DNA of 64,000 nucleotides, from contig KE159798.1 of NCBI GenBank assembly GCA_000403475.2, forward strand, positions 134,960 to 198,959, written 5' to 3'. The first letter of the stretch is position 1; each line of letters opens with the position of its first letter. This DNA is from Lachnospiraceae bacterium MD308. GTDB taxonomy: Bacteria > Bacillota > Clostridia > Lachnospirales > Lachnospiraceae. Below are positions 44,849 to 62,351 of the stretch, piece by piece. Below the pieces are notes generated by a model. The model was not told the origin of the DNA. It did no database searches and saw only the letters and a program-made list of their open reading frames with translations. A program made the translations under genes and the position numbers.

Positions 44849-45703
44849 ATGGAATTGTTGAGAAACCAGATTAAACATCATTTTTTGAATCAGATTGTTT
44901 TCAGATTGGATTATGAGGGGCTGCTCGAAAAAGATGTTGAAGAATGCGTATTTAATCTGCGGCAGAAATTTTATGGCGCAGGTTTTACACATATGAACAG
45001 GCGTGCGGAAAATCAAGTTGATATTCAGGTAAAGATAGATTTGAATGTATCATCTGATAATGAGTATATGGTTAGTAACACCAATGAAGGATGGGTTTAT
45101 ATTTTTTCTTCTGACAGTAATGAAGTGATAGAACTGAGTAAAAATTTTTTCACGCTTACTATAGAGGTGGATAAGGAATATAAGACATTTGATAAATATA
45201 TTTCTTTGCTTGCGGAGTCAATCGAATTTATTAAAAACTGTTCGCCGTACTTTCGTGCATTAAGGATGGGATTAAGAAAAATTAATGTCTGTTTTTTGAA
45301 AGAATTGAATTTGGCATCTTCTTTTTTCACAAAGGCAGCATTTAATGTTGAAGAAATAATGAATCAATTTTCAGGGTTTGAATGTACAGGTTCTAATATG
45401 GTGACACTGTTTGTAAAAGACGGATACTGTATTAATTATGTACGCAATATACAGAAAGGCGCAATGCAGCAGGAGGATGGCTCTCAGGAACCGGTTTATC
45501 AGATAGCTTTAGATATTGATGTCTACAGAGAGAGTGATAAAGAGATAAGACATCTCTTATCAGAAAATAAATCCATAGAAACAACTTTGAGAGAACAAAA
45601 TAAAGTTGAGTTTGAGATGTTTATAAAATCACTGACTGATGCAATGATAAAAAAAATGACAGAAGATGATTTTGAATGTACGGAAATATTAGGAGTGAAT
45701 TAA
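44849..45703 (+). CDS. TIGR04255-type family protein
   Basis: 284 residues, recognised by the overall pattern of the sporadically distributed TIGR04255 family. It has an N-terminal beta region (NQIVFRLDYEGLLEKDVEEC), a central FRALRMGLRKINVCFLKELN segment corresponding to the family RxGLRxIN core, and a C-terminal helix ending MIKKMTEDDFECTEILG. No enzymatic motif is visible. The family is patchy across bacteria and often found in defence or mobile regions. It is 1 base away from a small gene and co-directional with an MBL-fold gene. Base composition is more AT-rich than the flanking glycosyltransferase genes. Confidence 0.65.
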   Translation: MELLRNQIKHHFLNQIVFRLDYEGLLEKDVEECVFNLRQKFYGAGFTHMNRRAENQVDIQVKIDLNVSSDNEYMVSNTNEGWVYIFSSDSNEVIELSKNFFTLTIEVDKEYKTFDKYISLLAESIEFIKNCSPYFRALRMGLRKINVCFLKELNLASSFFTKAAFNVEEIMNQFSGFECTGSNMVTLFVKDGYCINYVRNIQKGAMQQEDGSQEPVYQIALDIDVYRESDKEIRHLLSENKSIETTLREQNKVEFEMFIKSLTDAMIKKMTEDDFECTEILGVN

Positions 45704-45704
45704 G

Positions 45705-45878
45705 ATGAGTAAAGTTAAGTTTGTATCTACAGGGAAAAATCCTTATGTATTAAAGCACGTCAGTGCGGAAACGAAACCAGGAGAATTTATCTCAAGCTCA
45801 AAGATGGGGAAAACTCAGATGTTTAGAAACAATACTATGAACATAACAGGGAGAAAAGTGACATTTAAACATGTATAA
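45705..45878 (+). CDS. 57-residue protein between TIGR04255 and MBL genes
   Basis: ATG 45705, GGAGTG about 10 bases upstream, stop at 45876-45878. The product starts MSKVKFVSTGKNPYVLKHVS and is basic (many Lys/Arg), with no signal or membrane segment. Its stop overlaps the next ATG by 8 bases. The 1-base gap upstream and overlap downstream indicate a real, translationally coupled gene. I do not recognise the family. By position it could be a subunit, an antitoxin-like regulator or a modifier of one of its neighbours. Confidence 0.6.
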   Translation: MSKVKFVSTGKNPYVLKHVSAETKPGEFISSSKMGKTQMFRNNTMNITGRKVTFKHV

Positions 45879-46869
45879 ACATCATATTGATGGAATTGTA
45901 AATAATTCAAATAAATATAAAAATATTGTATTTTTTCAAAAGTCTCTGCTTGTTGAAACATATATCATTGGATATAAAACTGAGGGAGAGACGATTCTCT
46001 TTTTTATCCGAGCAGATGGAGGGGTAAGCTTTTCAGGATTAGTCGATTGTTACAGAAGTAAAGATATTGATATTGTAAGTTCTATTTTAAGGGAAAGTGG
46101 CGTTAATAAATTAAACTTTATTTGTTGGACGCATCCCGACTTGGATCATTCTAAAGGGCTCAAAGAAATGATTAAGCAATATAGCTCATCAGAAACCAAT
46201 ATCTGGATTCCGGAGGGTGTGGATGCAAAAGAAATAAGTTGCAGTGAAGAGGTGAAGAATCTGTTTGCTTATCTGAAACAATGTGCCCGATCAATGGAAA
46301 CGGAATTGAATGTTTATTCAGTGTCTGATAAAAAGGACTTAACATATTATGACTCTTTGTGCTTTCAAAAGGGAATTGACGCTTTCCCTCTTAATTTAAT
46401 TTCTTATACTCCTAATTCTAAAATCATGCGAAAGCAGAATTATCTTGATAAATTTATCAGAAATGATAGGTCAATCTTTTTTGTTTTATCTTTAGGGCAG
46501 GTTCGCATATGGCTTACAGGCGATATCGAAGATGCGACAATTGAGCAGATTCCCAAAGAATTTTTTGCAGAACATATACATATCCTTAAAATTCCGCACC
46601 ATGGGTCAGGTACATCGACTAAAATCATGGAGCTTGGCTGGACAGACTGTGATGTGGCATGTTCAACAGTTTATCGGAAGGGACGCAGCCATTTGCCTGA
46701 TGAGAAAGTAATGGCTCAATATAAGAAATTAGCTGAAAACTTATATTGTACTGGAAATGAGGATAGACATAAAGAGAAACAGGAATATGGCATGGTAAAA
46801 GTGGTGACGAATGTTTTGGATAATAGCTATACTACTGTAGTACAGGGAAATGCTGAGATTTGGAATTAA
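45871..46869 (+). CDS. Metallo-beta-lactamase-fold hydrolase, ComEC-like type
   Basis: 332 residues. MBL motifs: WTHPDLDHSKGL (H88, D90, D92, H93), LTGDIED and PHHGSGTS, in the order found in the soluble ComEC/Rec2-type branch that acts on nucleic acids or nucleotides. The first half before the motif (FFIRADGGVSFSGLVDCY) has the usual substrate-proximal strands. There is no signal peptide. Overlap with the 57-residue gene shows operon membership. Such soluble MBL proteins beside TIGR04255 genes look like effector nucleases or phosphodiesterases of a defence unit; this is inference. Confidence 0.75.
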   Translation: MYKHHIDGIVNNSNKYKNIVFFQKSLLVETYIIGYKTEGETILFFIRADGGVSFSGLVDCYRSKDIDIVSSILRESGVNKLNFICWTHPDLDHSKGLKEMIKQYSSSETNIWIPEGVDAKEISCSEEVKNLFAYLKQCARSMETELNVYSVSDKKDLTYYDSLCFQKGIDAFPLNLISYTPNSKIMRKQNYLDKFIRNDRSIFFVLSLGQVRIWLTGDIEDATIEQIPKEFFAEHIHILKIPHHGSGTSTKIMELGWTDCDVACSTVYRKGRSHLPDEKVMAQYKKLAENLYCTGNEDRHKEKQEYGMVKVVTNVLDNSYTTVVQGNAEIWN

Positions 46870-46911: not shown

Positions 46912-48639
46912 ATGGCAAGGACAGTTGGAATCGGCCATCAGGATTTTGAAGATTTGCGGCTGAAGGATAATTTCTATGTGGATAAAACCAATTTTATCAA
47001 AGAGTGGTGGGAGTCAGATGATGTTGTAACGCTGATTGCCCGTCCCCGAAGATTCGGAAAGACACTGAACATGAGTATGTTAGAAAAGTTCTTTTCAGTA
47101 AAATATGCTGGTCGGGGCGAACTGTTTGAAGGGCTTTCTATATGGGAGGATGAAAAATATCGGGAGATACAGGGGACCTATCCGGTGATAGCATTAAGCT
47201 TTGCCAGAGTAAAGGCAACATCTTTTTCAGATGCCAGAAAGGAAATCTGTCAAATTATCAAAGAGCTGTACAATAAAAGTGATTTTTTGCTTGAAAGCGG
47301 CTGCATGAACGAAGATGAGAAGGAGATGTTTCGCAGTGTGTCAGCCGAGATGGAAAATTATATAGCGGGAGGTTCATTGCGGGCACTGTCGGATTATTTA
47401 ATGCGGTATTACGGAAAAAAAGTGATTATTCTCCTGGATGAATATGATACGCCGATGCAGGAGGCTTATATAAGTGGGTACTGGGATGAATTGGCAGAAT
47501 TTATCAGGAGTCTGTTTAATGCCGCGTTCAAGACGAACCCCTATCTGGAACGAGCCGTTATGACAGGTATAACGAGAGTGAGCAAGGAGTCCATATTTTC
47601 AGACCTGAATAATTTGGAAGTGATCACAACAACTTCTCATCGATATGAAGATGCATTTGGATTCACGGAGAAAGAGGTGTTTTCTTCACTGGATGAATTC
47701 GGTATGTCGGAAGATAAAACAGATGTAAAAAGATGGTATGATGGTTTTACGTTTGGAGAAAGGACAGATATATATAATCCATGGTCTATCATTAATTATT
47801 TAGTTAAAGGGAAACTCGCTGCGTACTGGGCTAATACCAGTTCTAACAGTTTGATTGGGCAACTGATCCGAGAGGGAAATAAAGATGTGAAATTGTCTTT
47901 TGAAAAACTTCTTGCGGGAGAGAGTTTGGTTACAGAAATTGATGAACAGATCGTGTATAATACATTAAACGAAGATGAAACAGCAATCTGGAGCCTTTTG
48001 CTCGCCAGTGGTTATTTAAAAGTGGTTAGAGTCGGGGAGTATAAAAAAAATGAGTATGAAGACCATGTACTTGAGTATGAACTAAAGATAACGAATTTTG
48101 AGACAAGGCATATGTTTGGTAATATGGTGCGGGGGTGGTTCCGGAAAAATGCGTCTGCCTATAATGGGTTTATAAAGGCGCTGCTTTCAGATGATATAGA
48201 ATCTATGAATGCTTATATGAATAGAATTACATCTACGGTATTCAGCTATTTTGATACCGGGAAAAATCCTTCCGGGGAAGGGGCTGAAAGATTTTACCAT
48301 GGTTTTGTTCTGGGGCTTATGGTGGAGCTTAACGACCGATATATGATTACTTCTAACCGTGAGAGCGGTTTCGGAAGATATGATGTGATACTGGAACCAA
48401 AAAAGCAAATCGATGATGCTATCATACTGGAATTCAAAGTACAGAATAAAAGACGCGAGAAAGAGCTTTCGGATACGGTAAAAGCTGCTTTGCAGCAAAT
48501 TGAAGAGAAGAATTATGTTGCTGCGCTTATTGGAAGGGGTATAGAGAGAAAACGTATACGCAGGTATGGATTTGCGTTTTGTGGCAAAGAAGTGTTGATT
48601 GACGGGCAGTTGCTATTGTATTTGCAAAAGGAGGAGTGA
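46912..48639 (+). CDS. AAA-ATPase-like protein with C-terminal PD-(D/E)XK nuclease-fold domain (DUF1703 type)
   Basis: 575 residues from ATG 46912. The family start GIGHQDFEDLRLKDNFYVDK is followed by a P-loop RPRRFGKTLNMSML, Walker B IILLDEYDTPMQEAY and VMTGITRVSKESIFSDLNN. The C-terminal domain has ESGFGRYDVILEPK and AIILEFKVQN, the D...ExK pattern of the PD-(D/E)XK fold. These proteins are highly multiplied in gut anaerobes and their role is unknown; mobile-element defence has been suggested. A 321-bp part of its 3' end is repeated at 49563-49883. Confidence 0.85.
   Translation: MARTVGIGHQDFEDLRLKDNFYVDKTNFIKEWWESDDVVTLIARPRRFGKTLNMSMLEKFFSVKYAGRGELFEGLSIWEDEKYREIQGTYPVIALSFARVKATSFSDARKEICQIIKELYNKSDFLLESGCMNEDEKEMFRSVSAEMENYIAGGSLRALSDYLMRYYGKKVIILLDEYDTPMQEAYISGYWDELAEFIRSLFNAAFKTNPYLERAVMTGITRVSKESIFSDLNNLEVITTTSHRYEDAFGFTEKEVFSSLDEFGMSEDKTDVKRWYDGFTFGERTDIYNPWSIINYLVKGKLAAYWANTSSNSLIGQLIREGNKDVKLSFEKLLAGESLVTEIDEQIVYNTLNEDETAIWSLLLASGYLKVVRVGEYKKNEYEDHVLEYELKITNFETRHMFGNMVRGWFRKNASAYNGFIKALLSDDIESMNAYMNRITSTVFSYFDTGKNPSGEGAERFYHGFVLGLMVELNDRYMITSNRESGFGRYDVILEPKKQIDDAIILEFKVQNKRREKELSDTVKAALQQIEEKNYVAALIGRGIERKRIRRYGFAFCGKEVLIDGQLLLYLQKEE
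48286..48606 (+). repeat. Direct repeat, copy 1 (3' end of the ATPase gene)
   Basis: This 321-bp stretch aligns without gaps to 49563-49883 with only scattered substitutions, many silent. It encodes the nuclease-fold domain (RFYHGFVLGL to EVLIDG). Confidence 0.85.
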
Positions 48640-49529: not shown

Positions 49530-49889
49530 TTTTTCGGTTTATCCGGGTTAGGGGAAGGGGAGGAAAGATTTTATCATGGCTTTGTGCTGGGGCTTATAGT
49601 AGAGCTCAACGAACGTTATACGATCACTTCTAACCGTGAGAGTGGTTTCGGAAGATATGATGTGATGCTGGAACCAAAACAGCAAAGCGATGATGCTATC
49701 ATACTGGAATTCAAAGTACAGAATAAAAGACGCGAGAAAGAGCTTTCCGATACGGTAAAAGCTGCTTTGCAGCAGATTGAAGAGAAGAATTATGCTGCTT
49801 CGCTTGTCGGAAAGGGTATAGAGAGAAAACGTATATGCAGGTACGGATTTGCGTTTTGTGGCAAAGAAGTGTTGATTGACGGGAAGTAA
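49530..49889 (+). pseudogene. 3' remnant of a second AAA-ATPase/PD-(D/E)XK gene
   Basis: An open frame reads GLSGLGEGEERFYHGFVLGL onward to a stop at 49887-49889, without any start or ATPase domain. It is a near copy of the last 110 residues of the protein at 46912, with GRYDVMLEPK and ILEFKV kept. It ends 8 codons earlier (DGK stop instead of DGQLLLYLQ). It is best explained as what is left of a tandem duplicate after deletion, with the vapBC remnant lying between the copies. Confidence 0.8.
49563..49883 (+). repeat. Direct repeat, copy 2
   Basis: Gap-free partner of 48286-48606 (321 bp each), 1277 bp apart start to start. Recombination between the two would delete the vapB/vapC remnant. 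Confidence 0.85.
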
Positions 49890-50040: not shown

Positions 50041-50071
50041 TTGGACGAATACGTAGGGGGGGGGGTATAAT
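50041..50071 (+). promoter_or_regulatory. Poly-G promoter 1 (G10), upstream of the first BIG2 gene
   Basis: TTGGAC (50041-50046) and TATAAT (50066-50071) flank a 19-nt spacer, GAATACGTA followed by ten G (50056-50065). The G tract occupies the half of the spacer next to the -10 box. Gain or loss of one G would change the -35/-10 distance. The 45 bp upstream are nearly identical to those of poly-G promoter 2. Confidence 0.85.
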
Positions 50072-50107
50072 CGAAAGTATAGGAAAATTATCTGGAAGGA
50101 GGAGTAA

Positions 50108-51964
50108 ATGGGAATGTATAAAAGACGAACGCTCTTATCGATTATGGTATTTGTAATTATGTGGGGATGCTTTGCAGGAATAAATCTAACTGTAAAGGCA
50201 GCAGCATTTGATACAAACATATCACCAGATGGACAGAGGGATGATAGAGAGGAGGTGTTAGTAACTACTGCGGCTACAATACCCATATATCATTCAATTC
50301 CGCCTTATCAGCAAAAAGATTTATATGCCGGAGCAACTGTAAAGATCAAAGGATTGACTGTTGAAGAGATTGTTGATGGGAAAGCAAATGGTGAAACAAG
50401 ACCTTATACAGATGCAATCAGATTTAAGATTTATAATAGCACAAAGCAGAAAGTAGAGCAGGTTGTAGAGGCAAAAAACGGAAGGCTTCCAGATATTACA
50501 TTAGTTGACAATCATACTTATATTATATTTTCGCAGGATGCAGATTACAAAGTAGTAAGAGATGACGGGAATACACAATACAAATTATCTAAAAATGCGT
50601 ACATTTGGGTAAAGAATGGGAAAATATATGACATTAAAGAAGGGGCGGATGCGCCGTACAATTATCCGGAGTTCAAAAAGATTCAGGTTACTCAGAGAAC
50701 AGGCTCGGATTTGCCCGATGATGACAGAGTTCCTTTATATCTGCCTGTTCAGTATAAAGGGAGCGGAATCTCTCTGCGAAATGTCAAGCTTAAGCTAGTA
50801 AGCGATGTTGAAACAATTGAAACAAGTTCCGGGGATTCCGGACGGTTAAATGTTCAGGTGTTAGAAGATGTGAATTATATCATTACAGTAGATAGTGATG
50901 AGTGGGATATAGAAGCATTTCCGCTTGCAGCTAAAGACAAGTCTGAATATCGTACGGACAAAGGGCGCCCGGGTGAAAGATATTTTTATGACCATTCAGA
51001 TTGTCATCAAGTTCTTGCTATAGAATTGGTAAATAAAAAAGATGCGCATAAAAATGATAAGAAGGTAACCAGCCTGTCAGGAAATACAACTGTTTCTGGT
51101 TTTGACTTTAAAGACTTTCTCGTAATGGAGAAAAAGCTGAACAAAAATCTGGTGAAGGGATTAGAAGGGAAAGATTATGATATTTTAAATATTTCAGCTG
51201 TCAATCCGCACAGATGGGAAATATCGAAACTTGCAGCAGGGAATTTCAATATTACAGAAAAGACGGATACGGCAAAAAAGGTCAACAGTGTTTATTATAT
51301 CGACGGCGAAGGCGGACTTAGGCCGCTTGATTTCAGCGAGACGAAGGGTGCTGTGAGTTTTACTATGAACAGTATGTCTATACATCCGGTTGTAATCGTA
51401 TATGACAAGATTGTTCAGAAAGCGGAAGCCCAGAAAACGGCAGTTCAAAAAATAACTGTCAGCGGCATATCTAAATCAATTGCTGCCGGAAAAAAGATAC
51501 AGCTTAAAGCTGATATAATACCGTCGAATGCAGAAAACAAGGCTGTTGTATGGGAAAGTACTAACAGTAAATATGCATCTGTAGATTCCAACGGAAAAGT
51601 TACGGCTAAAAAAGCAGGTGGGGGAAAGAGTGTTGAAATTATTGCCACAGCAAGGGACGGCAGCGGGAAACAGGGCGTATATAAGATTAAAATTATGAAA
51701 AATGCTGTCAAGAGTATCAGTCTGAAGGCAAAAAGGACATTAAAAGCAGGGAAAAAAGTAGCAGTAAAGGCGACTGTCAAAACGACAGGAAAAAGTGCTA
51801 ACAAGAAGCTGCAGTGGCTCAGCTCTGATACGAGATATGCAACGGTTAATTCTAAGGGAAAAGTGACTGCAAAAAAAGCAGGAAAAGGAAAGAAAGTAAA
51901 GATAACCGCAAAAGCGACGGATGGAAGCGGAAAGAAAAAGACAATAACGATTAAGATTAAGTAA
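50108..51964 (+). CDS. Exported BIG2-domain surface protein 1 (phase-variable promoter)
   Basis: 618 residues after GGAAGGAGGAG. Signal peptide with GCFAGINLTVKAAA as the likely cleavage region. The central 400 residues are unassigned, mainly beta-rich, with repeated short segments such as PDITLVDNHTYIIFS and VLEDVNYIITVDS suggestive of prealbumin-like modules. Residues about 455-618 are two BIG2 domains (KITVSGISKSIAAGKKIQLK, SISLKAKRTLKAGKKVAVK) ending in TIKIK. There is no LPxTG, SLH or transmembrane anchor. The next gene starts within the same transcript. Confidence 0.8.
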   Translation: MGMYKRRTLLSIMVFVIMWGCFAGINLTVKAAAFDTNISPDGQRDDREEVLVTTAATIPIYHSIPPYQQKDLYAGATVKIKGLTVEEIVDGKANGETRPYTDAIRFKIYNSTKQKVEQVVEAKNGRLPDITLVDNHTYIIFSQDADYKVVRDDGNTQYKLSKNAYIWVKNGKIYDIKEGADAPYNYPEFKKIQVTQRTGSDLPDDDRVPLYLPVQYKGSGISLRNVKLKLVSDVETIETSSGDSGRLNVQVLEDVNYIITVDSDEWDIEAFPLAAKDKSEYRTDKGRPGERYFYDHSDCHQVLAIELVNKKDAHKNDKKVTSLSGNTTVSGFDFKDFLVMEKKLNKNLVKGLEGKDYDILNISAVNPHRWEISKLAAGNFNITEKTDTAKKVNSVYYIDGEGGLRPLDFSETKGAVSFTMNSMSIHPVVIVYDKIVQKAEAQKTAVQKITVSGISKSIAAGKKIQLKADIIPSNAENKAVVWESTNSKYASVDSNGKVTAKKAGGGKSVEIIATARDGSGKQGVYKIKIMKNAVKSISLKAKRTLKAGKKVAVKATVKTTGKSANKKLQWLSSDTRYATVNSKGKVTAKKAGKGKKVKITAKATDGSGKKKTITIKIK

Positions 51965-51987
51965 TGGATAGAAGAGAGGGACAGAAT

Positions 51988-53853
51988 ATGAAGAAATATA
52001 TTAAAAAATTATTGGCTGGTTTGATGATACTGGCTATGATCTTTGGGTGCATTTCAGGAACAGGGGTATCTGAAGTTAAAGCAGCGGCGGAAGAAGATGA
52101 AGATGGAAATTATATATCATTTGACATAAAAGTTACAGATGAAAACAATGCACCGGTTAATGGGTTGGAATTACAGTTGTATCGTAAGGACTCATATGAG
52201 GGTGAATCGATTTTAAATTTTGAAAGCCCGACAAATGGGCAAGGTGAGACAAGTTATAAGTGTAATGATGAAGAAATGTATGGAGCACAGACCATATATT
52301 ATGAATTACAGCTTAAAGCGGAAAGTGGTTATGAGATTTCACAGCCTTTGAAAGTATGGTTTGGAGAAGGTTATGAGGATGAAGATTTTAATGTACATAC
52401 ATGTATTGATTATATAAATAATACGAATTCTTATTATGATGGGGAAACAGTGCCTGTTCAAGTGAAAAAGACAGGAGGAGATGCTCCAGAACCAGTCGTA
52501 GAAGACCAGTTTTTAGAAGGAAAAGTTGCAATGGAGGACGGCAGTCCTATAGCAGAAACGATAAGCTTGCAGCTTGAAAAATCAATTATCAGCAGTGATG
52601 AGCCAGTAGTATTTGATACAGAAGAAGATGGGCGGTTTAAAGTAAAAATTAACGACCTTGATGACGCGCAATATAACTTGAAGCCAGTTGCAGGGAGTAA
52701 GTATAAATGTGTCGGCGACAAACCAATGACGATAACTTTTGACAGTCGTACAGAAGATGGGCAGAAAATAAAATATGTTTCTAAGGTAAACAATGAAGAG
52801 TATACAGACGGAGAAATCATTCTTTCTGTAGTTGATGATTCTTCTTCTACGGTTGTCAAAGCAGCGGCAGAAGTAAAATCGATAAGTGAAAAGGGAGGTA
52901 ATGTTGTTGTAACTGTTACGGGAAAGAACCTTCCGGATAAACTTTATTACAAGAAATATTACGTAAGAGATGATATGGATGGGGATTTGTCGAGCAGTTC
53001 GGAAAAGCCGCAGGAAGTCTTGGCACAGGGAAATACGGATACAGAAAAAACAATAGAAGTGTCTCTGCCAAATGCAAGGGAGTATCTGGGTGAAGAGATT
53101 TTTTTGAAAGCTGTGGCGTGGAAAATAGGCGTAGATGTGTCTGCTGACGGAATGTTTCTTGCCAATGCCAGGACAGGCAATATAGAAATTGAAAAAGAAA
53201 AGCAGCCGGATGAAGAAGACGGAAAAGAAGAAGATAATAATAAAGATGATGACAATAATAAAGAAGATAATAAAGGAGACAATAAGGTAGAAGACAACAA
53301 GGACTCTACGACGGTAAAAGAGGATATAAAAGTCGCAAAAATTACAATAAGCGGCATTTCTAAAAAAATCGCAGCAGGTAAAAAACTTCAGCTCACTGCA
53401 AAAGTAACTCCGTCAAATGCGACGAATAAAGCGGTTATATGGTCAACGTCTAACAAGAAATATGCAACTGTAGATTCCAAAGGAAAGGTTAGTGTTAAAA
53501 AAGCCGGTGCAGGTAAAACAGTTACAATTACGGCAAAAGCGGCAGATGGAAGCGGAGTGAGAGGTTCTTATAAGATTCAGATTAAAAAGGATACTGTTAA
53601 AAGTATAAAACTGAAAGCGAAAAAGTCTGTAAAAGCAGGAAAATCGTTAAAAGTAACAGCAATCGTAAAGACAACTGGAAAAAAAGCAAATAAAAACTTA
53701 AAGTGGACGAGTTCTAACACGAAATATGCTGTTGTGTCTGCAAAGGGCGTTGTAAAGACGAAAAAGGCTGGGAAAGGAAAAAAGGTAAAGATTACGGCAA
53801 AAGCAACAGACGGAAGTAACAAAAAAGCAACAATTATGATTAAAATCAAATAA
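51988..53853 (+). CDS. Exported BIG2-domain surface protein 2, in operon with protein 1
   Basis: 621 residues from ATG 51988 (MKKYIKKLLAGLMILAMIFG), preferred over an upstream ATG at 51964 because it follows GAGAGGGAC and starts a clean signal peptide (cleavage near VKAAAEE). Residues 40-400 are unassigned and contain prealbumin-like pieces (ENNAPVNGLELQLYRKD, FDTEEDGRFKVKIND). A highly acidic Asp/Glu/Asn/Lys linker of about 45 residues follows. Two BIG2 domains (KITISGISKKIAAGKKLQLT, SIKLKAKKSVKAGKSLKVT) end in MIKIK. With no promoter of its own, it should switch together with protein 1. Confidence 0.8.
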   Translation: MKKYIKKLLAGLMILAMIFGCISGTGVSEVKAAAEEDEDGNYISFDIKVTDENNAPVNGLELQLYRKDSYEGESILNFESPTNGQGETSYKCNDEEMYGAQTIYYELQLKAESGYEISQPLKVWFGEGYEDEDFNVHTCIDYINNTNSYYDGETVPVQVKKTGGDAPEPVVEDQFLEGKVAMEDGSPIAETISLQLEKSIISSDEPVVFDTEEDGRFKVKINDLDDAQYNLKPVAGSKYKCVGDKPMTITFDSRTEDGQKIKYVSKVNNEEYTDGEIILSVVDDSSSTVVKAAAEVKSISEKGGNVVVTVTGKNLPDKLYYKKYYVRDDMDGDLSSSSEKPQEVLAQGNTDTEKTIEVSLPNAREYLGEEIFLKAVAWKIGVDVSADGMFLANARTGNIEIEKEKQPDEEDGKEEDNNKDDDNNKEDNKGDNKVEDNKDSTTVKEDIKVAKITISGISKKIAAGKKLQLTAKVTPSNATNKAVIWSTSNKKYATVDSKGKVSVKKAGAGKTVTITAKAADGSGVRGSYKIQIKKDTVKSIKLKAKKSVKAGKSLKVTAIVKTTGKKANKNLKWTSSNTKYAVVSAKGVVKTKKAGKGKKVKITAKATDGSNKKATIMIKIK

Positions 53854-53862
53854 TATTTCCAA

Positions 53863-53908
53863 AAGGGTATTGCAAGGTTATCTAAATAGATGGTCATGCA
53901 ATACCCTT
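53863..53908 (+). terminator. Terminator after BIG2 proteins 1 and 2
   Basis: A 12-bp perfect stem, AAGGGTATTGCA (53863-53874) with TGCAATACCCTT (53897-53908), followed by ATTTTATT. Confidence 0.8.
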
Positions 53909-54046
53909 ATTTTATTAATGTGAAGAGATTCGGCAGTGCACTTTTTCAGAAACGCATGCCGGATTTTAGATGTAATTGAACGTTGGGCGTGCTGTTTTGC
54001 ATATAGATAATATAAATATATGAATATGATTTATCTAGTATATCAA

Positions 54047-54078
54047 TTGGACGAATACGTAGGGGGGGGGGGTATAAT
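54047..54078 (+). promoter_or_regulatory. Poly-G promoter 2 (G11), upstream of BIG2 protein 3
   Basis: TTGGAC (54047-54052) and TATAAT (54073-54078) with a 20-nt spacer, GAATACGTA plus eleven G (54062-54072). Apart from the extra G the core is identical to promoter 1, and upstream similarity extends to about 53998. Confidence 0.85.
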
Positions 54079-54132
54079 TGAGAATGATATATAATAACGC
54101 ATTCAGATAAACGCATTGAGGAGGTAAAATAT

Positions 54133-57003
54133 ATGAGAATGTGTAAAAAACGGACGCTGTCGTTGATATTGACGTTAGCGTTGATTGTGGGGTGCTTTGC
54201 GGGGACGGGGATAACCGTGAAGGCAACGGACAATTATCCAGAGTTGAACAGTATAACATTGTCCCCAGAATCATTGGAAAGTAAAGGCGGAACAGTTCAA
54301 GTAACTGTAAAAGGACAAAATATAGGAAGTCTTTATTATCGGGTGGGAAAGTTGACTTCGGAAGATCCTGGACCCCAATATGATTGGGGAGGATGGCAAA
54401 ATGTAACAGTAAGCAGTGCTACAGAGTCGACGTTTACAGTAGAGATTCCTGCAAATACAGCGAATGAAGCAGTTACATATAGAGTTCAAGTGAATACTTC
54501 TCAGGGGGCAAATGGAGCAAAAGCAAAAAATATTACAGTAGCAGCATCAGATGGTTCTGTAGAAACAGTGGACAAAACAGAGCTGGCAAATGTAATTGCG
54601 GACGCAAAGTCAAGAACAGAGCAGGATTATGAAGCGGCTGGATGGGCAGCAATGCAGGAAAAATTACAGGCAGCCGAAACTGTAAATAATAATGAACAAG
54701 CAACAGCAGCACAGGTTAAGGAAGCTCAGGATGCATTACAGACAGCGCTTGACGCACTTGTATTGAAAACAGCTACAATCACAAAGGTAACAGCTACACC
54801 GACTGAAATTCCGACGAATGGAGGTACAGTACAGCTTAAAGTTGAAGGAACAAACCTCACAAGTACTAATTGGGGGATAAAATCAGAGAGCTTTATCAGT
54901 GGAACTCAACAGTCGGCAAGTGATAAAGCCGGGCAAGTTTCTGTAAAGGAAATAACAGAAAGTGGCGCTGCAATTGAGATTTCCTCGAATGGAATGAAAA
55001 ATGATGTGGATTTTGTGCTTTCGGTAGGACCTAAAAAGGGAGAGACAATCGAGAAACAAAAAGAAGTAACCGTAAAACAGTTAGCTAAGACTTATTCTAC
55101 GACAAGCTTAACGCCGGAATCGGTTGTGCTTGCAGATGACCGGACTGTAGTTGCAGAATTTGCAGAAGATATATCAGCAGTAGAAGGGGCAGACCTGAAA
55201 AAACTTATCTATATCGCAGATACAAGCGGAGAAAACCGTCATAATCTGACAGATGACGGCAAAGTGACAATTGATAATAAGAAAGTTATTGTCGAGTATG
55301 CAGAGCCATTAAGTGATATAGGGACAACTTCCTATCTGTATATTAAAGAAGGTGCCATGACTACCGTTGTCAATAAAGAGACATTGGTAGTATCTGATAT
55401 CAAGTGGCTTATTCAGACAACTACAAGAGTATCTAGTATTACGGTAGACAAAGATTTGTTTAACCATAAAGGAGGAACAGTAACGGCAGTATTAAATGGT
55501 TATAAAGTTGAAGAGATTGATCTTGAAAAAGATTTGACCGCTGCCGTATATATTCCGGGAGAGACACAGGCGTCAGATATTGCAGTCAGCAAGACGAAAA
55601 ATGAAGATGGAAAGCCGGTTCTTACTTTTGCGGTTCCGGAGAATAAGACCGCAAATACAATGAGCTACTGGCTGAATGTTAAGTATAAAAATACTCCGGT
55701 ATATGAAAGCGCAGCAGACAGCCGCGGGCAGAGGACGGCAATCTCCGTCCTTCCGGTGGGTAAGACAGATAAGGATGTTACATTAAGTATGGTGACAATC
55801 TCCGGTAACAATAAGACAGAGGTCAACAATACAAAAGACATAGAAGTCCAGGTGTCAAATAACATTGGAGAATTAAAGACAGAACTCAGAGTATACGGTA
55901 CGAATCTGAATTCTGAACTGACAAAAGTACGTGCAGTTGATGAAAATGGAATTGTATGGCCGGTTTACCAGATTTCTGAGTGTGACGGAACATGGAGGTT
56001 TATCGCTATTGCAGGGCCTCACAGGAACGGAGTGTTTGGCGATGGCAACAGCCAGTTGATTGAATTGCTTCCTCCGAGATATGCGGGAACGAATAAGACA
56101 TACCGCATTCAGGTGGCTCTTGACGGAAAGAACTTTATAGAGGAGCCATGCGTTACTTTGAAAGTGAATAATGAGGGCATATCAGGCGAGTATGAGTTCA
56201 GAGATTGTACCTCCGCTAATTTTAAATATGTTACGGTAAAATATGTAGATGAATCAGGAAAAGAGCTTGCAGACAAGGATGTGTATAAGGGATATTGCAT
56301 CTCCATGCCGGAAAGTTTCGGTATCGCACCGAAGCAGATTGCGGGCTATAAGCTTATCAAAGAGCCGGAGCTTGATGAGTGGGTGGAAGAAGGAAGAACT
56401 TACAGCTATGTGTACAGAAGTACATCCACATCCTCAGGCACGGATATAAAGGATACAACGACAAACAAGGAGCCGATAAAAGTCAGCAGCATCAAACTCA
56501 GCGCAGCATCAAAGAAGATTGCGGCTGGGAAGAAAGTCCAGATGAAGACAGAAGTATTCCCTGCAAATGCAACAAATAAGGCTGTTACCTATAAGACGAG
56601 CAATAAAAAATATGCGACAGTCAGTGCTTCTGGTAAAGTTACGCTGAAGAAAGCAGGAGCAGGTAAGACGGTTACGATTACCGCGACGGCAGCAGACGGC
56701 AGCGGAAAGAAAGCTTCCTATAAGATTACAATTATGAAGAATGCTGTAAAGAGCGTTAAGCTCAAATCGGCAAAAACTGTGAAAGCAGGAAAGAAGCTGA
56801 AAGTGAAAGCCACCGTTAAGACAACCGGCAAGAAGGTTAATAAGAAGCTGAAATGGACAAGCTCAAATACGAAGTATGCGACAGTATCCGCCAGCGGTGT
56901 TGTGAAGACAAAGAAAGCAGGAAAAGGAAAGACGGTGAAGATTACAGCGGTGTCGACGGATGGAAGCAACAAAAAGGGCACTGTTAAGATTAAGATTAAA
57001 TAA
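54133..57003 (+). CDS. Exported BIG2-domain surface protein 3, with FIVAR and MucBP-like domains
   Basis: 956 residues after GAGGAGGTAA. Signal peptide (ILTLALIVGCFAGTGITVKA). An Ig-like region (LNSITLSPESLESKGGTVQV) comes first. A FIVAR-type helical repeat follows at about 150-215 (AAGWAAMQEKLQAAETVNNN), then several more beta-sandwich regions (KVTATPTEIPTNGGTVQLKV, SSITVDKDLFNHKGGTVTAV). Next is a MucBP-like domain at about 695-765 (VTVKYVDESGKELADKDVYK, EEGRTYSYVYR) and two BIG2 domains to the end (VKIKIK). FIVAR and MucBP suggest binding of host glycan or mucin. It lacks a sorting signal. Confidence 0.83.
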   Translation: MRMCKKRTLSLILTLALIVGCFAGTGITVKATDNYPELNSITLSPESLESKGGTVQVTVKGQNIGSLYYRVGKLTSEDPGPQYDWGGWQNVTVSSATESTFTVEIPANTANEAVTYRVQVNTSQGANGAKAKNITVAASDGSVETVDKTELANVIADAKSRTEQDYEAAGWAAMQEKLQAAETVNNNEQATAAQVKEAQDALQTALDALVLKTATITKVTATPTEIPTNGGTVQLKVEGTNLTSTNWGIKSESFISGTQQSASDKAGQVSVKEITESGAAIEISSNGMKNDVDFVLSVGPKKGETIEKQKEVTVKQLAKTYSTTSLTPESVVLADDRTVVAEFAEDISAVEGADLKKLIYIADTSGENRHNLTDDGKVTIDNKKVIVEYAEPLSDIGTTSYLYIKEGAMTTVVNKETLVVSDIKWLIQTTTRVSSITVDKDLFNHKGGTVTAVLNGYKVEEIDLEKDLTAAVYIPGETQASDIAVSKTKNEDGKPVLTFAVPENKTANTMSYWLNVKYKNTPVYESAADSRGQRTAISVLPVGKTDKDVTLSMVTISGNNKTEVNNTKDIEVQVSNNIGELKTELRVYGTNLNSELTKVRAVDENGIVWPVYQISECDGTWRFIAIAGPHRNGVFGDGNSQLIELLPPRYAGTNKTYRIQVALDGKNFIEEPCVTLKVNNEGISGEYEFRDCTSANFKYVTVKYVDESGKELADKDVYKGYCISMPESFGIAPKQIAGYKLIKEPELDEWVEEGRTYSYVYRSTSTSSGTDIKDTTTNKEPIKVSSIKLSAASKKIAAGKKVQMKTEVFPANATNKAVTYKTSNKKYATVSASGKVTLKKAGAGKTVTITATAADGSGKKASYKITIMKNAVKSVKLKSAKTVKAGKKLKVKATVKTTGKKVNKKLKWTSSNTKYATVSASGVVKTKKAGKGKTVKITAVSTDGSNKKGTVKIKIK

Positions 57004-57065
57004 TTGCATAAGTTCGGCAGTATGTTTCTATAATGTGAATTTGAGTTTTTAAAAATAATATAAGC

Positions 57066-57113
57066 AAAAAAATCAGGATGGTTAATTTTTATAATTACCG
57101 TCCTGATTTTTTT
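57066..57113 (+). terminator. Terminator after BIG2 protein 3
   Basis: AAAAAAATCAGGATGGTTAAT pairs imperfectly with ATTACCGTCCTGATTTTTTT around a short AT loop; the T run reaches 57113. A/T-rich on both sides, so possibly bidirectional. Confidence 0.75.
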
Positions 57114-57156
57114 GTTTATATATAGATTATTTGAATAAGTATATAATGTTTTTCGA

Positions 57157-57188
57157 TTGGACGGAGAAGTAGGGGGGGGGGGTATAAT
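57157..57188 (+). promoter_or_regulatory. Poly-G promoter 3 (G11), upstream of BIG2 protein 4
   Basis: TTGGAC (57157-57162) and TATAAT (57183-57188) with a 20-nt spacer, GGAGAAGTA plus eleven G (57172-57182). The upstream sequence has diverged from promoters 1 and 2 while the -35, G tract and -10 are conserved, indicating selection on that arrangement. Confidence 0.85.
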
Positions 57189-57238: not shown

Positions 57239-59023
57239 ATGAGAATGTGTAAAAGACGGATGCTTTCGTTTGTATTAGCGTTAGTATTAGTAGCAGGGTG
57301 TTTTGCAGGTACGGGGATATCTGTGAAGGCAGCAGATGTGGAAGAAAATGTAGTAGTGTTAGCGACGGCTGTGTTTGAAGATGTGCCGGTAGAAGGGGTG
57401 GAATTTGAGCTAAGGGACACTACAAAGACTCCAGGGGATGAGGGATATATTGCAGCAAAAATAACATCTGATAAAGATGGCAAATTAAAATGTAACGTTA
57501 AAAATATAGCTAATGGTATGTATCGATTTATAATATCTGAATCGGCTGTGTATACTTCGTTTGACGCTTATGATTTTACCATTCAGAATGGGAATATTAT
57601 TAGGGTAGATTCAACAAACTGGACAGGCAATGAAAATTTGAAGTTTGATCTTGCGGAAAAACCTGATCCTGCAAAACAATCAATTACCATTAAACTAGTA
57701 GATGAGCCGGGTGGAGCTTTGGTGACAGATTCAGCAGTGAAATTACAAGTAATGGATTATTATTCGGATGATGATAATAATCCGTATACAAGTACAGAGG
57801 AACCTGTGAATGGAGAATACACATATACTGTTGCAAGTGACTCAGGGGTAAAGATTGTCATTGGATTAGATAAAGATGTAAAGGGATATGAAGCAAATCC
57901 AATCGAGCTCCGTTTAAGAAACAGCATGATTGATAAAGTAATTATAGATGGAGTAGAGACGGTTTATGACGGAACTCCGCAGGAAATGGTAGTAACTCCG
58001 GTTGGTTTGACAGCTAATATTACAGAAGTAATAGCTATGCCGAACGAAATCCCGGCTAATGGCGGCGAAGTACAGCTTTCTATTACAGGTACAGATACAA
58101 CAGCAGCTAATTGGGGAGTGGAAGTGCAGAGCGTAATAAGCGGGACGGAGCAGAAACCGGGCGATAAAGCAGGACAGGCAGTTGTAGAAAAGACTACAAA
58201 AAAGAATGCAGTGATAAAAATTTCTGAAAATGAAACAGAAGATAAGATTGATTTCATATTTTCTGTTGGACCAAAGGGAGAAGAGGGTAATATTACAAAA
58301 CAGGCAAGCGTAAAAGTAACTCAGGCGGGTAAAGTTCAGGATAATGATAAACCGCAGAATCCAGATGACAAACCGCAGAATCCAGATGACAAACCGCAGA
58401 ATCCGGATGACAAGCCTCAAAATCCGGATGATAAGCCTCAGACCCCGGGCAATGATAAGCCGCAGGATGATAACAAACCAGCGCTTCCGGAGACAATTAA
58501 AGTCAGCAGTATCAAACTCAGTGCAGCTTCTAAAGAAATTGCTGTAGGAAAGAAGATTAAGCTTACAACAAAAGTATTTCCGGCAAATGCAACAAATAAA
58601 TCTGTTACATATAAGAGCAGCAATACTAAGTATGCATCTGTAGATGGAACCGGTAAAGTTACAGTGAAAAAAGCAGGCGCAGGTAAGACAGTTACAATCA
58701 CGGCAACTGCAGCGGACGGCAGTGGAAAAAGTGCTTCTTATAAGATTAAGATTATGAAGAGTGCTGTAAAGAGTATAAAAGTAAAAGCTGCTAAGTCTGT
58801 AAAGGCAGGGAAGAAAGTAAAAGCAAAAGTTACGGTAAAGACAACTGGCAAAAATGCAAATAAGAAGCTGAAATGGACAAGCTCTAATACAAAATATGCG
58901 ACAGTATCCTCGAAAGGAGTAATTAAGACCAAGAAAGCTGGAAGAGGAAAAACTGTTAAAATTACAGCCGCTGCGACAGACGGAAGCGGAAAGAAGAGCA
59001 CTGTTAAGATTAAGATTAAATAG
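57239..59023 (+). CDS. Exported BIG2-domain surface protein 4, with repeat linker
   Basis: 594 residues after GAGGAGG. Signal peptide MRMCKRRMLSFVLALVLVAG, with the following residues nearly the same as in protein 3. The first 260 residues are beta-rich prealbumin-like modules (FEDVPVEGVEFELRDTTKTP). A domain at about 262-365 parallels one in protein 3 (EVIAMPNEIPANGGEVQLSI). A linker of five DKPQNPD-type heptads (about 369-403) and a charged Asn/Asp stretch lead to two BIG2 domains ending VKIKIK. The linker may vary in length through its 21-bp DNA repeats. Confidence 0.82.
   Translation: MRMCKRRMLSFVLALVLVAGCFAGTGISVKAADVEENVVVLATAVFEDVPVEGVEFELRDTTKTPGDEGYIAAKITSDKDGKLKCNVKNIANGMYRFIISESAVYTSFDAYDFTIQNGNIIRVDSTNWTGNENLKFDLAEKPDPAKQSITIKLVDEPGGALVTDSAVKLQVMDYYSDDDNNPYTSTEEPVNGEYTYTVASDSGVKIVIGLDKDVKGYEANPIELRLRNSMIDKVIIDGVETVYDGTPQEMVVTPVGLTANITEVIAMPNEIPANGGEVQLSITGTDTTAANWGVEVQSVISGTEQKPGDKAGQAVVEKTTKKNAVIKISENETEDKIDFIFSVGPKGEEGNITKQASVKVTQAGKVQDNDKPQNPDDKPQNPDDKPQNPDDKPQNPDDKPQTPGNDKPQDDNKPALPETIKVSSIKLSAASKEIAVGKKIKLTTKVFPANATNKSVTYKSSNTKYASVDGTGKVTVKKAGAGKTVTITATAADGSGKSASYKIKIMKSAVKSIKVKAAKSVKAGKKVKAKVTVKTTGKNANKKLKWTSSNTKYATVSSKGVIKTKKAGRGKTVKITAAATDGSGKKSTVKIKIK
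58343..58447 (+). repeat. Five 21-bp tandem repeats coding for DDKPQNP
   Basis: Units start at 58343, 58364, 58385, 58406 and 58427. The first three are nearly identical, the last two have silent and coding changes (CCTCAA, ACC). In-frame units of this kind change copy number by slippage or unequal recombination without breaking the frame. Confidence 0.9.
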
Positions 59024-59036
59024 CTAGTTATAAAAG

Positions 59037-59079
59037 ACCGCTGCATCTATCTGCGACGCAGGTAAGTGCAGTGGTTTTT
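59037..59079 (+). terminator. Hairpin between BIG2 protein 4 and the LRR gene
   Basis: ACCGCTGCA (59037-59045) pairs with TGCAGTGGT (59067-59075) with one G-T pair, then TTTTA. It may terminate or attenuate; the LRR gene follows after about 20 bases with no separate promoter visible in the gap. Confidence 0.65.
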
Positions 59080-59096: not shown

Positions 59097-62000
59097 ATGA
59101 AAGCAGGAAAAGCAAAAAGGATTATAGCAGCAGCGTTAACTGCAATACTGGCGGCAACGGGAAGTATATCTTCCGCCATCACGTCTAACGCAAACAATTG
59201 CGGCGGATTGATAGAGGAAGATTTGTGGGAGCCGGGAAAAGATGAGGTCATTCAGGACCCGATTCTTCATTGGGCAATCCGGTCATCACTTAATGCGATT
59301 AAGACAGAACCCAGGATAAAGCTTACCAGCAATATTGTAGGAACAGTGAAGGAGATATCCTATTCGTTATGTGCACATCCGGATGACTTTGAAGGCTGGA
59401 GCAAGCCTTATTGGATTGACAGCTTAGAAGGATTGCAGCATGCATCTTCAATGACATCACTTGAGATAAGTTATACACAGAAAGTACAAAGTGAGGGTGG
59501 AGGGACGGAAAAACTTGATGACCTGACGCCCATATCTGATTTGACGCAGTTAACCAGACTGATAATGATGCAGGACGGTCTTAGAGACATTAGTTCACTG
59601 GAAAAACTGACAAATATGAGAGAGTTGAACCTGAGCGGCAATCATGAAATAAGTGACATCTCTGTTGTAGGAAATATGAAAAAGCTTGAAATGCTTACGC
59701 TTGACACCAATAATATTACAGATGTCAGTATGCTTGCTGATTTGGAAAAACTCGAAAATCTGAATATATCAGATAACAACATCTCTGCGTTACCTGATCT
59801 TAGTAAGCTTAATAATCTAGAGTATCTTTATGCATCGTCAAACAACTTGACTGATGAAGACGTAAAGAAGATTGGCGGGAAAAAAGATTTAAAAGAGCTG
59901 GATTTAAAAGGCAATCCTGGCATTACCGACCTAAAGCCATTAGCGGGGCTTATATTTCTTAATAAAGATAAAACATTTTTTAACGAGGAGTTAGAAGGTG
60001 AAAAAGAGAACCTGTTTGCAGCAATAGGAGTAAATAAACTGCTTAATAAGTTCAGTATTAATCACATGCAGCCCTCTGATCTTGAAAATGTTGAAAAAGC
60101 GCTTAAAGTCTATGATGAACTGAGCGCGGAGCAGAAGGCATATCTTGATGAAGGCAGGATAGAGGCGGCGCGTTCTAATAAAGAGCTGGTCAGCAATGGT
60201 GAACCGCCTAAGTTTTATGATGAATATGAAGGGGACGATGAAATCAGGCCGGTACTGGATCGTATGGAAATTACAGTTGTTGATAAAAATGGAAAACATA
60301 TGCCGGGAGTTAAGTTTGAAAGACAGGCCAGAGTCACCATAGGAGAATTTGTGACGGACGAGGATGGTGTGATGGAGATTATGCACAGGCCGGACAGTGA
60401 CCACTATACCCAGATTATAACTTTGGCGGATGAAGAGTTGATAAACCAGGGTTATGTAGCAATACCAGAAAAATTTGAATACGAAACAAGAGATTTAAAA
60501 ACATATACGGTTAATAATAAACGAGTTACAGGACTTGAACAGCATCGGATTATGCTTGTTCTTGAGAAAGAGTATGTTGATAAGACACAGTTAAAAGAAG
60601 TATTAGAAAGTGCAAAAGCGGTAGGGGAAGATTATAAGTATACAGCAGCTACTTATAATGCGTATCTTGATGCACTGAAAGCCGCACAGTCGGCTTATGA
60701 TAATACGGAAGCGTCGAAAGAAATGGTTGACGCTGTTGCAGCAAACTTGAAAAAAGCTATCAGTTCTTTAAAAATAGCGGATGAACTGACAAAATTGAAG
60801 CTGATTGTGAAAGATCAGAATGGTAATGCATTTACGAGAGCGTTTAAGTTTCAGATTTATGAAGCAGGGACGAAGAAAAATGCATGGAATGGGTTCTCGG
60901 ATGCAGAAACAGGAGTGGCATATTTAGAGCCGGGTTATATAGGAGCCGGAGAGTGGACTGTAGATGCATGCTATGAGGAACCATATAAGATTGATACTTT
61001 TAATGTGACCGTTGCGGTAAGAAATGACGGAAAGAGATATTATAAAGCGGTTGACAAAAGGGATGTTAAGGCTGATTTTGAAAAAGAAATTATCGTAAAA
61101 GCATTGCCGGGAGGAACTTCCGATAAAGATACAGAGAGAAAGCCTGACAGTACGGTATTGAGAAAACGTATAAAAGAGGCACTGGCATATAAACAGGGTA
61201 ATTATACGGATAAATCCTTTAGGAATCTACAGACGGCAATTCAAGAAGCAGAGGAGGCTGCGGCTAAGGCAGGGGCTACTCAGGAGGATTATAATGCGGC
61301 CGCGGCAAAACTTAAGAAAGCAATCGATGAGCTGGGGGAGCCGGCGAATACCGTTATGTTAGAATTAGCATTAGAAAGATATGCTGATTATGGGAAAGAT
61401 TACTATACGCCGGATACGTGGGCAAAATATCAGGCTGAATACGAGTATGCAAGAAGGGTGTACAGAGATAATGAAGCTACACAAAAGCAGGTGGATGAGG
61501 CGCTTTCAAGACTCAATGCAGCAGAGAAAGCGCTAAAAATGAACAGAACTGTGCTTCAGGAGATTTTAGAAACTGCAAAGCTTTTGAAAGAAGAAGATTA
61601 TGTAAGCGGATATGAAGAACTGCAGGAAGCTATAGCAGAAGCACAGGCAATATGTGATGATATAAACCATGCAGAAGAAACAAAAGTGAAAGCAGCATTG
61701 AAGCGATTGCAGGATGCGATTGACGCATTGCAAAAACCCACTCCGGAAAAACCAGGGCAATCAGAAAAACCAGGACAATCAGACAAGCCAGGTCAGTCGA
61801 AACCACAGACTCCGGCCGTAGAGACAATTAAAGTTACAAAAATAAACATTACCGGGTTATCGAATAAAATTGCCCAGGGTAAAAAGGTAACTTTAAAAGC
61901 AATCGTATCTCCGTCTAATGCAGAAAACAAAAAAGTTACATGGAAATCCAGCAACACAAAAGTTGCAACTGTTAATTCTAACGGCGTTGTGTCCTTGAAA

Positions 62001-62351
62001 AAGAAAACAGGCGGAAAGAAAGTGATAATTACTGCAACAGCGGCCGATGGAAGTAATGTGAAGGGAAGCTATAAAATTACTTCTATGAAAAATCCGGTAA
62101 AGAAGATAAGCATTTTGGGAAAGAAGTCTGTAAAAGCAGGCAAGAGTATAAAATTAAAAGCGAAGGTTAAAGCGTCCAAGGGTGCAAATAAAAAAGTATC
62201 GTGGACCAGCAGCAATACAAAATACGCAAAAGTATCTGCATCAGGAAAAGTAAAGACTTATAAAGCAGGTAAAGGCAAGAAAGTAGAGATTACTGCAAAG
62301 GCAACCGACGGAAGCGGGAAGAGAAAAACCGTGACAATTAAGATTAAGTAA
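59097..62351 (+). CDS. Exported leucine-rich-repeat surface protein with FIVAR repeats and BIG2 pair
   Basis: 1084 residues after AGAAAGGAG. Signal peptide (IIAAALTAILAATGSISSAI). Internalin-type LRRs span about 120-290 (DISSLEKLTNMRELNLSGNH, LEMLTLDTNNITDVSMLADL, LKELDLKGNPGITDLKPLAG). A prealbumin-like domain follows at about 390-490. Helical FIVAR-type modules lie at about 500-560 and 680-840 (YTAATYNAYLDALKAAQSAY, YTPDTWAKYQAEYEYARRVY). A linker of three EKPGQS repeats and two BIG2 domains ending TIKIK complete it. Likely a host-binding surface protein. Unlike proteins 1, 3 and 4 it has no poly-G promoter and may rely on read-through from gene 4. Confidence 0.85.
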   Translation: MKAGKAKRIIAAALTAILAATGSISSAITSNANNCGGLIEEDLWEPGKDEVIQDPILHWAIRSSLNAIKTEPRIKLTSNIVGTVKEISYSLCAHPDDFEGWSKPYWIDSLEGLQHASSMTSLEISYTQKVQSEGGGTEKLDDLTPISDLTQLTRLIMMQDGLRDISSLEKLTNMRELNLSGNHEISDISVVGNMKKLEMLTLDTNNITDVSMLADLEKLENLNISDNNISALPDLSKLNNLEYLYASSNNLTDEDVKKIGGKKDLKELDLKGNPGITDLKPLAGLIFLNKDKTFFNEELEGEKENLFAAIGVNKLLNKFSINHMQPSDLENVEKALKVYDELSAEQKAYLDEGRIEAARSNKELVSNGEPPKFYDEYEGDDEIRPVLDRMEITVVDKNGKHMPGVKFERQARVTIGEFVTDEDGVMEIMHRPDSDHYTQIITLADEELINQGYVAIPEKFEYETRDLKTYTVNNKRVTGLEQHRIMLVLEKEYVDKTQLKEVLESAKAVGEDYKYTAATYNAYLDALKAAQSAYDNTEASKEMVDAVAANLKKAISSLKIADELTKLKLIVKDQNGNAFTRAFKFQIYEAGTKKNAWNGFSDAETGVAYLEPGYIGAGEWTVDACYEEPYKIDTFNVTVAVRNDGKRYYKAVDKRDVKADFEKEIIVKALPGGTSDKDTERKPDSTVLRKRIKEALAYKQGNYTDKSFRNLQTAIQEAEEAAAKAGATQEDYNAAAAKLKKAIDELGEPANTVMLELALERYADYGKDYYTPDTWAKYQAEYEYARRVYRDNEATQKQVDEALSRLNAAEKALKMNRTVLQEILETAKLLKEEDYVSGYEELQEAIAEAQAICDDINHAEETKVKAALKRLQDAIDALQKPTPEKPGQSEKPGQSDKPGQSKPQTPAVETIKVTKINITGLSNKIAQGKKVTLKAIVSPSNAENKKVTWKSSNTKVATVNSNGVVSLKKKTGGKKVIITATAADGSNVKGSYKITSMKNPVKKISILGKKSVKAGKSIKLKAKVKASKGANKKVSWTSSNTKYAKVSASGKVKTYKAGKGKKVEITAKATDGSGKRKTVTIKIK
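61746..61799 (+). repeat. Three 18-bp tandem repeats coding for EKPGQS
   Basis: Units at 61746-61763, 61764-61781 and 61782-61799 encode EKPGQS, EKPGQS and DKPGQS in the linker before the BIG2 pair. Differences are mostly third-position. Confidence 0.85.

Follow-up and report, generated by a model that had tools for sequence, protein, structure and literature searches.

Near the end of a 64,000-nucleotide (nt) stretch of the Lachnospiraceae bacterium MD308 genome (GCA_000403475.2, contig KE159798.1, positions 134,960 to 198,959; hereafter the window), three promoters, P1, P2 and P3, precede genes for Big_2-domain proteins, and each carries an unbroken run of guanines between its -35 and -10 hexamers. 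Are these runs fixed parts of the promoters, or switches that change in length? Slipped-strand phase variation of poly-G promoter spacers appeared, with good though incomplete confidence, to be the best explanation. Four things were read directly from sequence: the tracts themselves, their location within promoter-like DNA, the surplus of long tracts, and the length differences between homologous promoters. From them we infer slippage in living populations, its rate, the lengths that would correspond to ON and OFF, and a benefit through varied exported proteins.

Promoter P1 (50042-50071, forward strand, as are P2 and P3) consisted of a -35 hexamer TGGACG (50042-50047), an 8-nt constant part, a G10 tract (50056-50065) and a -10 hexamer TATAAT (50066-50071), giving a spacer of 18 nt. 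P2 (54048-54078) and P3 (57158-57188) showed the same layout, with TGGACG at 54048-54053 and 57158-57163, an 8-nt constant part, G11 tracts at 54062-54072 and 57172-57182, -10 hexamers at 54073-54078 and 57183-57188, and spacers of 19 nt. Direct reading gave TTGGACGAATACGTA-G10-TATAAT at 50041-50071, TTGGACGAATACGTA-G11-TATAAT at 54047-54078 and TTGGACGGAGAAGTA-G11-TATAAT at 57157-57188, matching letter for letter the G10, G11 and G11 tracts touching TATAAT of a preliminary description of this DNA; a homopolymeric tract of at least 8 lay between -35 and -10 at all three sites. The pattern TTGGAC-N6-GTA-G7, with up to two mismatches, was found three times in the window while shuffles gave 0.03 expected matches, so the three sites are not due to chance, and TTGGAC-N6-12-GTA-G6 matched these three sites only in the genome (4,455,623 bases, 4 contigs). 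P1 and P2 were identical at 65 of the 75 positions before the tract, with tracts one G apart. A promoter scan reported P1 as promoter-like with a spacer of 18; its spacer limit of 16-18 nt left P2 and P3 (19) outside the scan. None of the G tracts was reported by a tandem-repeat scan of the window.

The genome (G000) held 11 sites matching G8TAWAAT, with tract lengths (n) of 10 at five sites, 11 at three, 13 at one and 14 at two. The best -35 hexamer ended 8 nt before the tract in ten of them and 7 nt before it in one. For this reason TTGGAC, proposed as the -35 in the preliminary description, was replaced by TGGACG, and the window spacers are probably 18, 19 and 19 nt, not 19, 20 and 20: the tract and TATAAT part of that reading stood, while its -35 register was probably one base off. 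In this register the window promoters matched the -10 consensus at 6/6 positions and the -35 consensus at 4/6, the eight other sites having better -35s.

Genome-wide, 35 tracts of at least 8 Gs were found and all were read. Twenty-seven were at least 10 long (3.0 expected) and 14 at least 11 long (0.7 expected), the expectations being derived from P(G|G) = 0.233 as measured in a 196,507-nt sample of this genome. Fourteen of the 35, with lengths of 8 to 14, were promoter-type, that is, they abutted a -10-like hexamer (at least 5/6, starting with TA) and had a -35-like hexamer (at least 4/6) at a spacing of 15-22. These were the three window sites and tracts at loci L039, L040, L044, L046, L047, L049, L050 (two), L056, L059 and L060; two tracts of L052 with a passing TA hexamer were left out because they lay inside long frames and had no -35 above 3/6. 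Three sites with 2^3 combinations, as first proposed, were hence too small a scale. A fourth member with an exact TATAAT, TTGGACAATCAGACA-G11-TATAAT, was recovered on another contig by the pattern TTGGAC-N8-20-G7-TATAAT, which had no match in the other 396 family genomes searched. With a looser -35 or -10, a G10 TATTAT site was found on that same contig, and a G8 TATCAT site at C4:201168, about 2.2 kb beyond the window end. The genus-mate G399, which is outside the 397-genome family sample, carried TTGGACAGAGCGGTA-G10-TACAAT near a contig end (L212). Among viral contigs, no match to the TTGGAC pattern was obtained, and the TTGACA pattern matched 4 contigs.

Besides exported Big_2 proteins, the genes after promoter-type tracts encoded further long proteins whose starts resemble signal peptides, as well as a glycosyltransferase, a monosaccharide-binding lipoprotein of the ChvE type (NCBIfam 473.1 bits, cut-off 460) and a Peptidase_M64 protein; the 177-amino-acid (aa) protein after the L059 tract looked cytoplasmic. 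The promoter of the M64 gene, TTGACA-7-G10-TATACT (L056:3995-6131; G000:C3, about 33.5 kb), lay directly before it. The protein matched Pfam Peptidase_M64 ('IgA peptidase', named after immunoglobulin A) with an E value of 3.5e-22, carried fn3 domains, an HEIAH motif and a signal-peptide-like start, and matched two PDB sequences named peptidases (E 6e-9 and 2e-8); a search against NCBIfam gave no match. It is a possible phase-variable antibody protease, IgA cleavage being hinted at only by the Pfam family name.

Long tracts were not confined to promoters. Among the 21 other tracts of the genome, six joined open segments in frame and seven out of frame on the G strand, some of these segments being short, and around the remaining eight that strand carried no long frame spanning the tract. 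A pair of paralogues differed in this respect: the G11 tract at L046:3997-4007 (reverse strand) was in frame and followed by 981 open codons, while the G10 tract at L060:11945-11954 was out of frame and followed by 995. Further out-of-frame coding tracts were found at L041, L045 and L051 (a YfhO-family gene), and in-frame ones in L052 (two acyltransferases and one FAD-oxidoreductase-like gene). Five genus-mates carried 6 to 26 tracts of at least 8 Gs each (63 in all, some of them contig-end artefacts), several of which lay close to or at the end of a contig. Three such end runs, of G50, G84 and G50 (L210, L232, L244), are probably artefacts and were excluded. The tract of a pair of two-component regulators (L215, L218) did not count as promoter evidence because it lies just before the start codon. 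Two contig ends of G057 (L226, L231) had almost identical flanks, next to tracts of G12 and G11.

Homologous promoters with and without a tract were compared; the species of MD308 was represented by one genome, and the lengths compared are those of paralogous and orthologous promoters. The ChvE promoter was alignable in five genus members (G000, G397, G367, G057 and G399) and had no match in the sixth, G398. By hand count, it read TTGAAA, 17 ordinary bases and TACAAT in G367, G057 and G399, TTGAAA-8-G9-TATAAT with a spacer of 17 in G397, and TTGAAA-8-G10-TATAAT with a spacer of 18 in G000. Since the aligned members have either an ordinary 17-nt spacer or a poly-G spacer, the two are alternative states of one promoter; G9 restores the ordinary spacer length, and the direction of change would be from ordinary spacer to G tract. 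Relatives of the TGGACR promoters, also counted by hand, had spacers of 18 in G399 (one with an interrupted tract, one tract-free) and 17 in a tract-free copy in G000. Because these relatives and the ChvE promoters have spacers of 17-18 nt, the optimum is placed there, and the active lengths would be n = 9-10. Length differences were also seen between the promoters of an ABC-transporter pair (proteins 81% identical; G11 vs G9) and between two neighbouring promoters in G398 (G11 vs G10). Another aligned pair (G000 L040 and G399 L237) was not used, the proteins being only 25% identical.

The pattern extended beyond the species. In 397 family genomes, G8TAWAAT occurred at 82 sites in 56 genomes, compared with 3 for the reversed pattern (p 5e-21, table count), and the MD308 genome had the most sites (11 vs 0 reversed). 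A class sample of 391 genomes included 375 from outside the family; these gave 17 sites in 13 genomes vs 4 for the control. A -35 was sought at a spacing of 14-22 in 81 of the 82 family sites, one not having been fetched. Perfect TTGACA was present in 26/81 (0.26% in shuffled upstream DNA) and a -35 of at least 5/6 in 45/81 (about 5.7% in shuffled upstream DNA). Within these 45, the hexamer ended 8-10 nt before the tract in 35 and the total spacer was 16-20 in 41. With the MD308 genome removed, the counts were 22/70 for perfect TTGACA and 37/70 for at least 5/6.

The core idea of the preliminary description, a phase-variable promoter family, is thus supported by the long tracts, the orientation and -35 tests, homologous promoters that differ in tract length or lack the tract, and the coding tracts in and out of frame. 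As proposed, P1 to P3 would be promoters of the sigma-A type in which the last part of the spacer, next to the -10, is an uninterrupted G tract. Slippage during replication would add or remove a G and shift the distance between -35 and -10 (8 + n nt), altering the helical phase of the hexamers and turning transcription of the downstream Big_2 genes up or down; the step from slippage through hexamer spacing to transcription follows the precedent of porA, fetA and opc (PMC2791445). Transcription would be best near 17-18 nt (n = 9-10), so that in the present assembly P1, with its 18-nt spacer (n = 10), would be more active than P2 and P3, whose spacers of 19 nt (n = 11) would make them weaker. 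All three would form part of a larger set of poly-G contingency loci that extends over the genome, in promoters and in coding sequence.

A number of results weigh against this mechanism. Tracts of at least 8 were overall not in excess (35 observed vs 55 expected), the excess being confined to long tracts. The -35 was weaker than 5/6 or absent in 36/81 family sites, and the window promoters themselves, each at 4/6, are among these 36. TAAAATG was the sequence at 19/81 sites, and in five of them the ATG started the longest downstream frame. Homopolymer lengths may be miscounted in an assembly, so single-base tract states are not to be trusted without reads. Two further results also favour the main rival, a fixed structural spacer, in which the stiffness or A-like form of the G tract would tune promoter opening or bind a factor, with a stable length and no phase variation. 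One related promoter kept G13 in both G000 and G397 although the flanks differ, and the distance c between the -35 and the tract was not significantly anticorrelated with n (Spearman -0.24, p 0.10, N 47; other genomes alone, -0.11, p 0.50, N 39). With c and n behaving in this way, tract lengths show no visible adjustment to a single total, and tuning to a constant spacer was dropped as an explanation. An AT-rich block upstream of several TGGACR promoters looked conserved, which makes other regulation likely as well and also fits a fixed spacer. That rival is weakened, however, by homologous promoters that lack the tract or have it interrupted, by the spread of lengths, 8 to 14, that a single genome shows over its 14 promoter-type tracts, and by long tracts interrupting reading frames, where a spacer role cannot apply; it was considered unlikely.

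Also to be weighed is a neutral or mutational by-product, in a lineage that tolerates long G tracts so that promoters and frames collect them by chance. It would account for tracts in coding frames and in places where no promoter or long frame is evident, and for the tracts of the five genus-mates, some of which are contig-end artefacts. A by-product would not be expected to show the strong orientation bias at -10 hexamers (82 vs 3) with -35 elements at proper spacing, nor would some related promoters both keep the tract despite diverged flanks. Exported-looking genes were also commoner downstream of the better sites than among neighbours (27/45 vs 45/171 open reading frames (ORFs) of other-genome loci, p 4e-5), although export was called by our own signal-peptide heuristic and the p value includes paralogues, the Big_2 ones not being independent. 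Better sites were the 11 of the MD308 genome and the other sites with a -35 of at least 5/6, counted if the downstream frame had at least 80 aa. Exported-looking genes followed 10/26 of the weaker -35 sites and made up 62/214 ORFs in the tract neighbourhoods of the MD308 genome, proportions that soften the comparison; in window positions 1-49000 they were 6/36. Taken together, a by-product was judged very improbable.

Sequencing or assembly artefacts in poly-G calls, which the runs at genus-mate contig ends do resemble, have a negligible probability here, the window tracts having promoter sequence on both sides inside a 362-kb contig and G8TAWAAT sites being found in 55 other family genomes. 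An invertible promoter or recombination site in place of slippage, for which the phase-variable cell-wall protein CwpV of Clostridioides difficile with its genetic switch offers a model (PMC2784873), was ruled out almost entirely, since the only inverted repeats at P1-P3 (in regions of 351-401 nt, with arms of 10 nt or more) were hairpins upstream of the promoters and none flanked them.

At the five start-codon loci of other genomes (L180, L085, L072, L154 and L159), G8-G10 was followed immediately by TAAAATG with the ATG starting the longest frame, and part of the family set is therefore tracts before start codons, not promoters. Such tracts may make up a second class whose effect is at the ribosome-binding site. 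One of the five loci was flagellin-like by eye.

In the window, the promoters are followed by five genes on the forward strand, all with Big_2 domains and, by eye, signal-peptide-like starts; the export heuristic was positive for genes 1, 3 and 4, the three on which it was run, and the products are predicted to be exported. Gene 1 (50108-51964; 618 aa; Pfam Big_2 E 2.8e-22) follows P1, and gene 2 (51964-53853; 629 aa) is probably in the same operon, because its start overlaps the gene 1 stop. Gene 3 (54133-57003; 956 aa, with MucBP as well as Big_2 domains) follows P2 and gene 4 (57239-59023; 594 aa) follows P3, while gene 5 (59097-62351; 1084 aa, an LRR/FIVAR/Big_2 protein) starts 73 nt after gene 4. 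Terminator-like hairpins were found by inverted-repeat search on the forward strand upstream of P1 (49921-49968, with a T-rich tail), between gene 2 and P2 (53863-53908) and between gene 3 and P3 (57058-57121, with a T-rich stretch). As a hairpin lies upstream of each promoter, the cluster probably falls into three separate units, each with a poly-G promoter at its head: genes 1 and 2, gene 3, and gene 4. Between genes 4 and 5, only an imperfect hairpin followed by T5 was read by eye (59038-59079, forward strand), and it was not among the forward-strand terminators of a terminator scan; gene 5 may on these grounds be expressed by attenuated read-through from P3. The preliminary count of four of five genes under the three sites may thus be five. 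A similar hairpin separated the two homologous genes in G399 (L121).

Other features lay inside or beside the cluster. A 21-nt tandem repeat of 4.7 copies (58344-58442) encoded PQNPDDK-like units within gene 4, and its copy number could vary in frame. Before the cluster, a 300-nt direct repeat of 92% identity (48274-48573 and 49551-49850) represented the duplicated 3' end of an AAA-ATPase/PDDEXK_9 gene, with the copy downstream; between the two copies lay a VapB-like antitoxin ORF (41.4 bits, below the cut-off of 60) and a short ORF that looked PIN-like by eye. Further upstream, an MBL-fold protein gene (45871-46869), with below-cut-off similarity to ComEC and anti-phage MBL proteins, adjoined a gene for a TIGR04255-family protein (44849-45703).

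The wider reading, for which the balance tips only slightly in favour, is that poly-G spacer promoters serve a whole family of Clostridia, known for the most part from the gut, as a lineage-wide means of making genes phase-variable. Ordinary 17-nt spacers would have become G tracts at single loci, as at the ChvE promoter, and one species would have a large set, with targets that include exported Big_2 proteins, sugar uptake, a glycosyltransferase and a secreted protein of the M64 'IgA peptidase' family. If so, a commensal would randomly vary the proteins that it exports, and perhaps the way it attacks host antibody, to an extent linked until now with Neisseria and Campylobacter. The claim can be tested directly, since amplicon data allow tract lengths to be counted. 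Such switches may be misrepresented in assemblies or may interrupt them, as suggested by the several genus-mate tracts lying at contig ends.

Colonisers that are Gram-negative or mycoplasmas provide the best-documented cases of phase variation through simple repeats. In gut anaerobes, most of the known cases work by DNA inversion, the subject of papers on invertible promoters or invertons. If promoter switches of the Neisseria poly-G kind occur throughout a large commensal family, they would supply another layer of random variation, and one that is easy to read. No report of poly-G spacer promoter phase variation in Lachnospiraceae was found among the open-access titles listed, which cannot prove absence, in agreement with the preliminary description, which knew of no equivalent in this family. 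The cwpV switch of C. difficile works by DNA inversion, unlike P1-P3, where no promoter-flanking inverted repeats were found. The repeat unit of the Haemophilus influenzae fimbrial promoter is a dinucleotide. Phase-variable promoters of Neisseria were reportedly described in the primary papers of van der Ende (1995) and Sarkari (1994).

Among Clostridium-type bacteria, C. difficile has a phase-variable cell-wall protein, CwpV (PMC2784873), a likeness to the switching proposed for MD308. In H. influenzae, fimbriae vary in phase through insertions and deletions in the promoter region (PMC9187656); a change of repeat length in the promoter region is likewise the proposed switch here, but the fimbrial repeats form one combined region for two divergent genes. 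According to the same source, Bifidobacterium breve UCC2003, also a gut Gram-positive with G-tracts, shows slippage of a pilus G-tract by deep sequencing, and one sentence mentions G-tracts in promoter spacers; unlike the present promoters, the switches described there are coding frameshifts, and B. breve belongs to another phylum. The closest likeness is to porA, opc and fetA of Neisseria meningitidis, surface-protein genes with an unstable homopolymeric tract between -35 and -10 (PMC2791445), the position that the G tract also has at P1-P3. MD308 differs in belonging to another phylum, in having 14 promoter-type tracts of one layout in a single genome, and in its targets, which are Big_2 and other exported proteins and not the outer-membrane proteins of Neisseria. 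By analogy, the mechanism would be of the same class as at porA and opc, and the MD308 system is notable for its spread and gene set.

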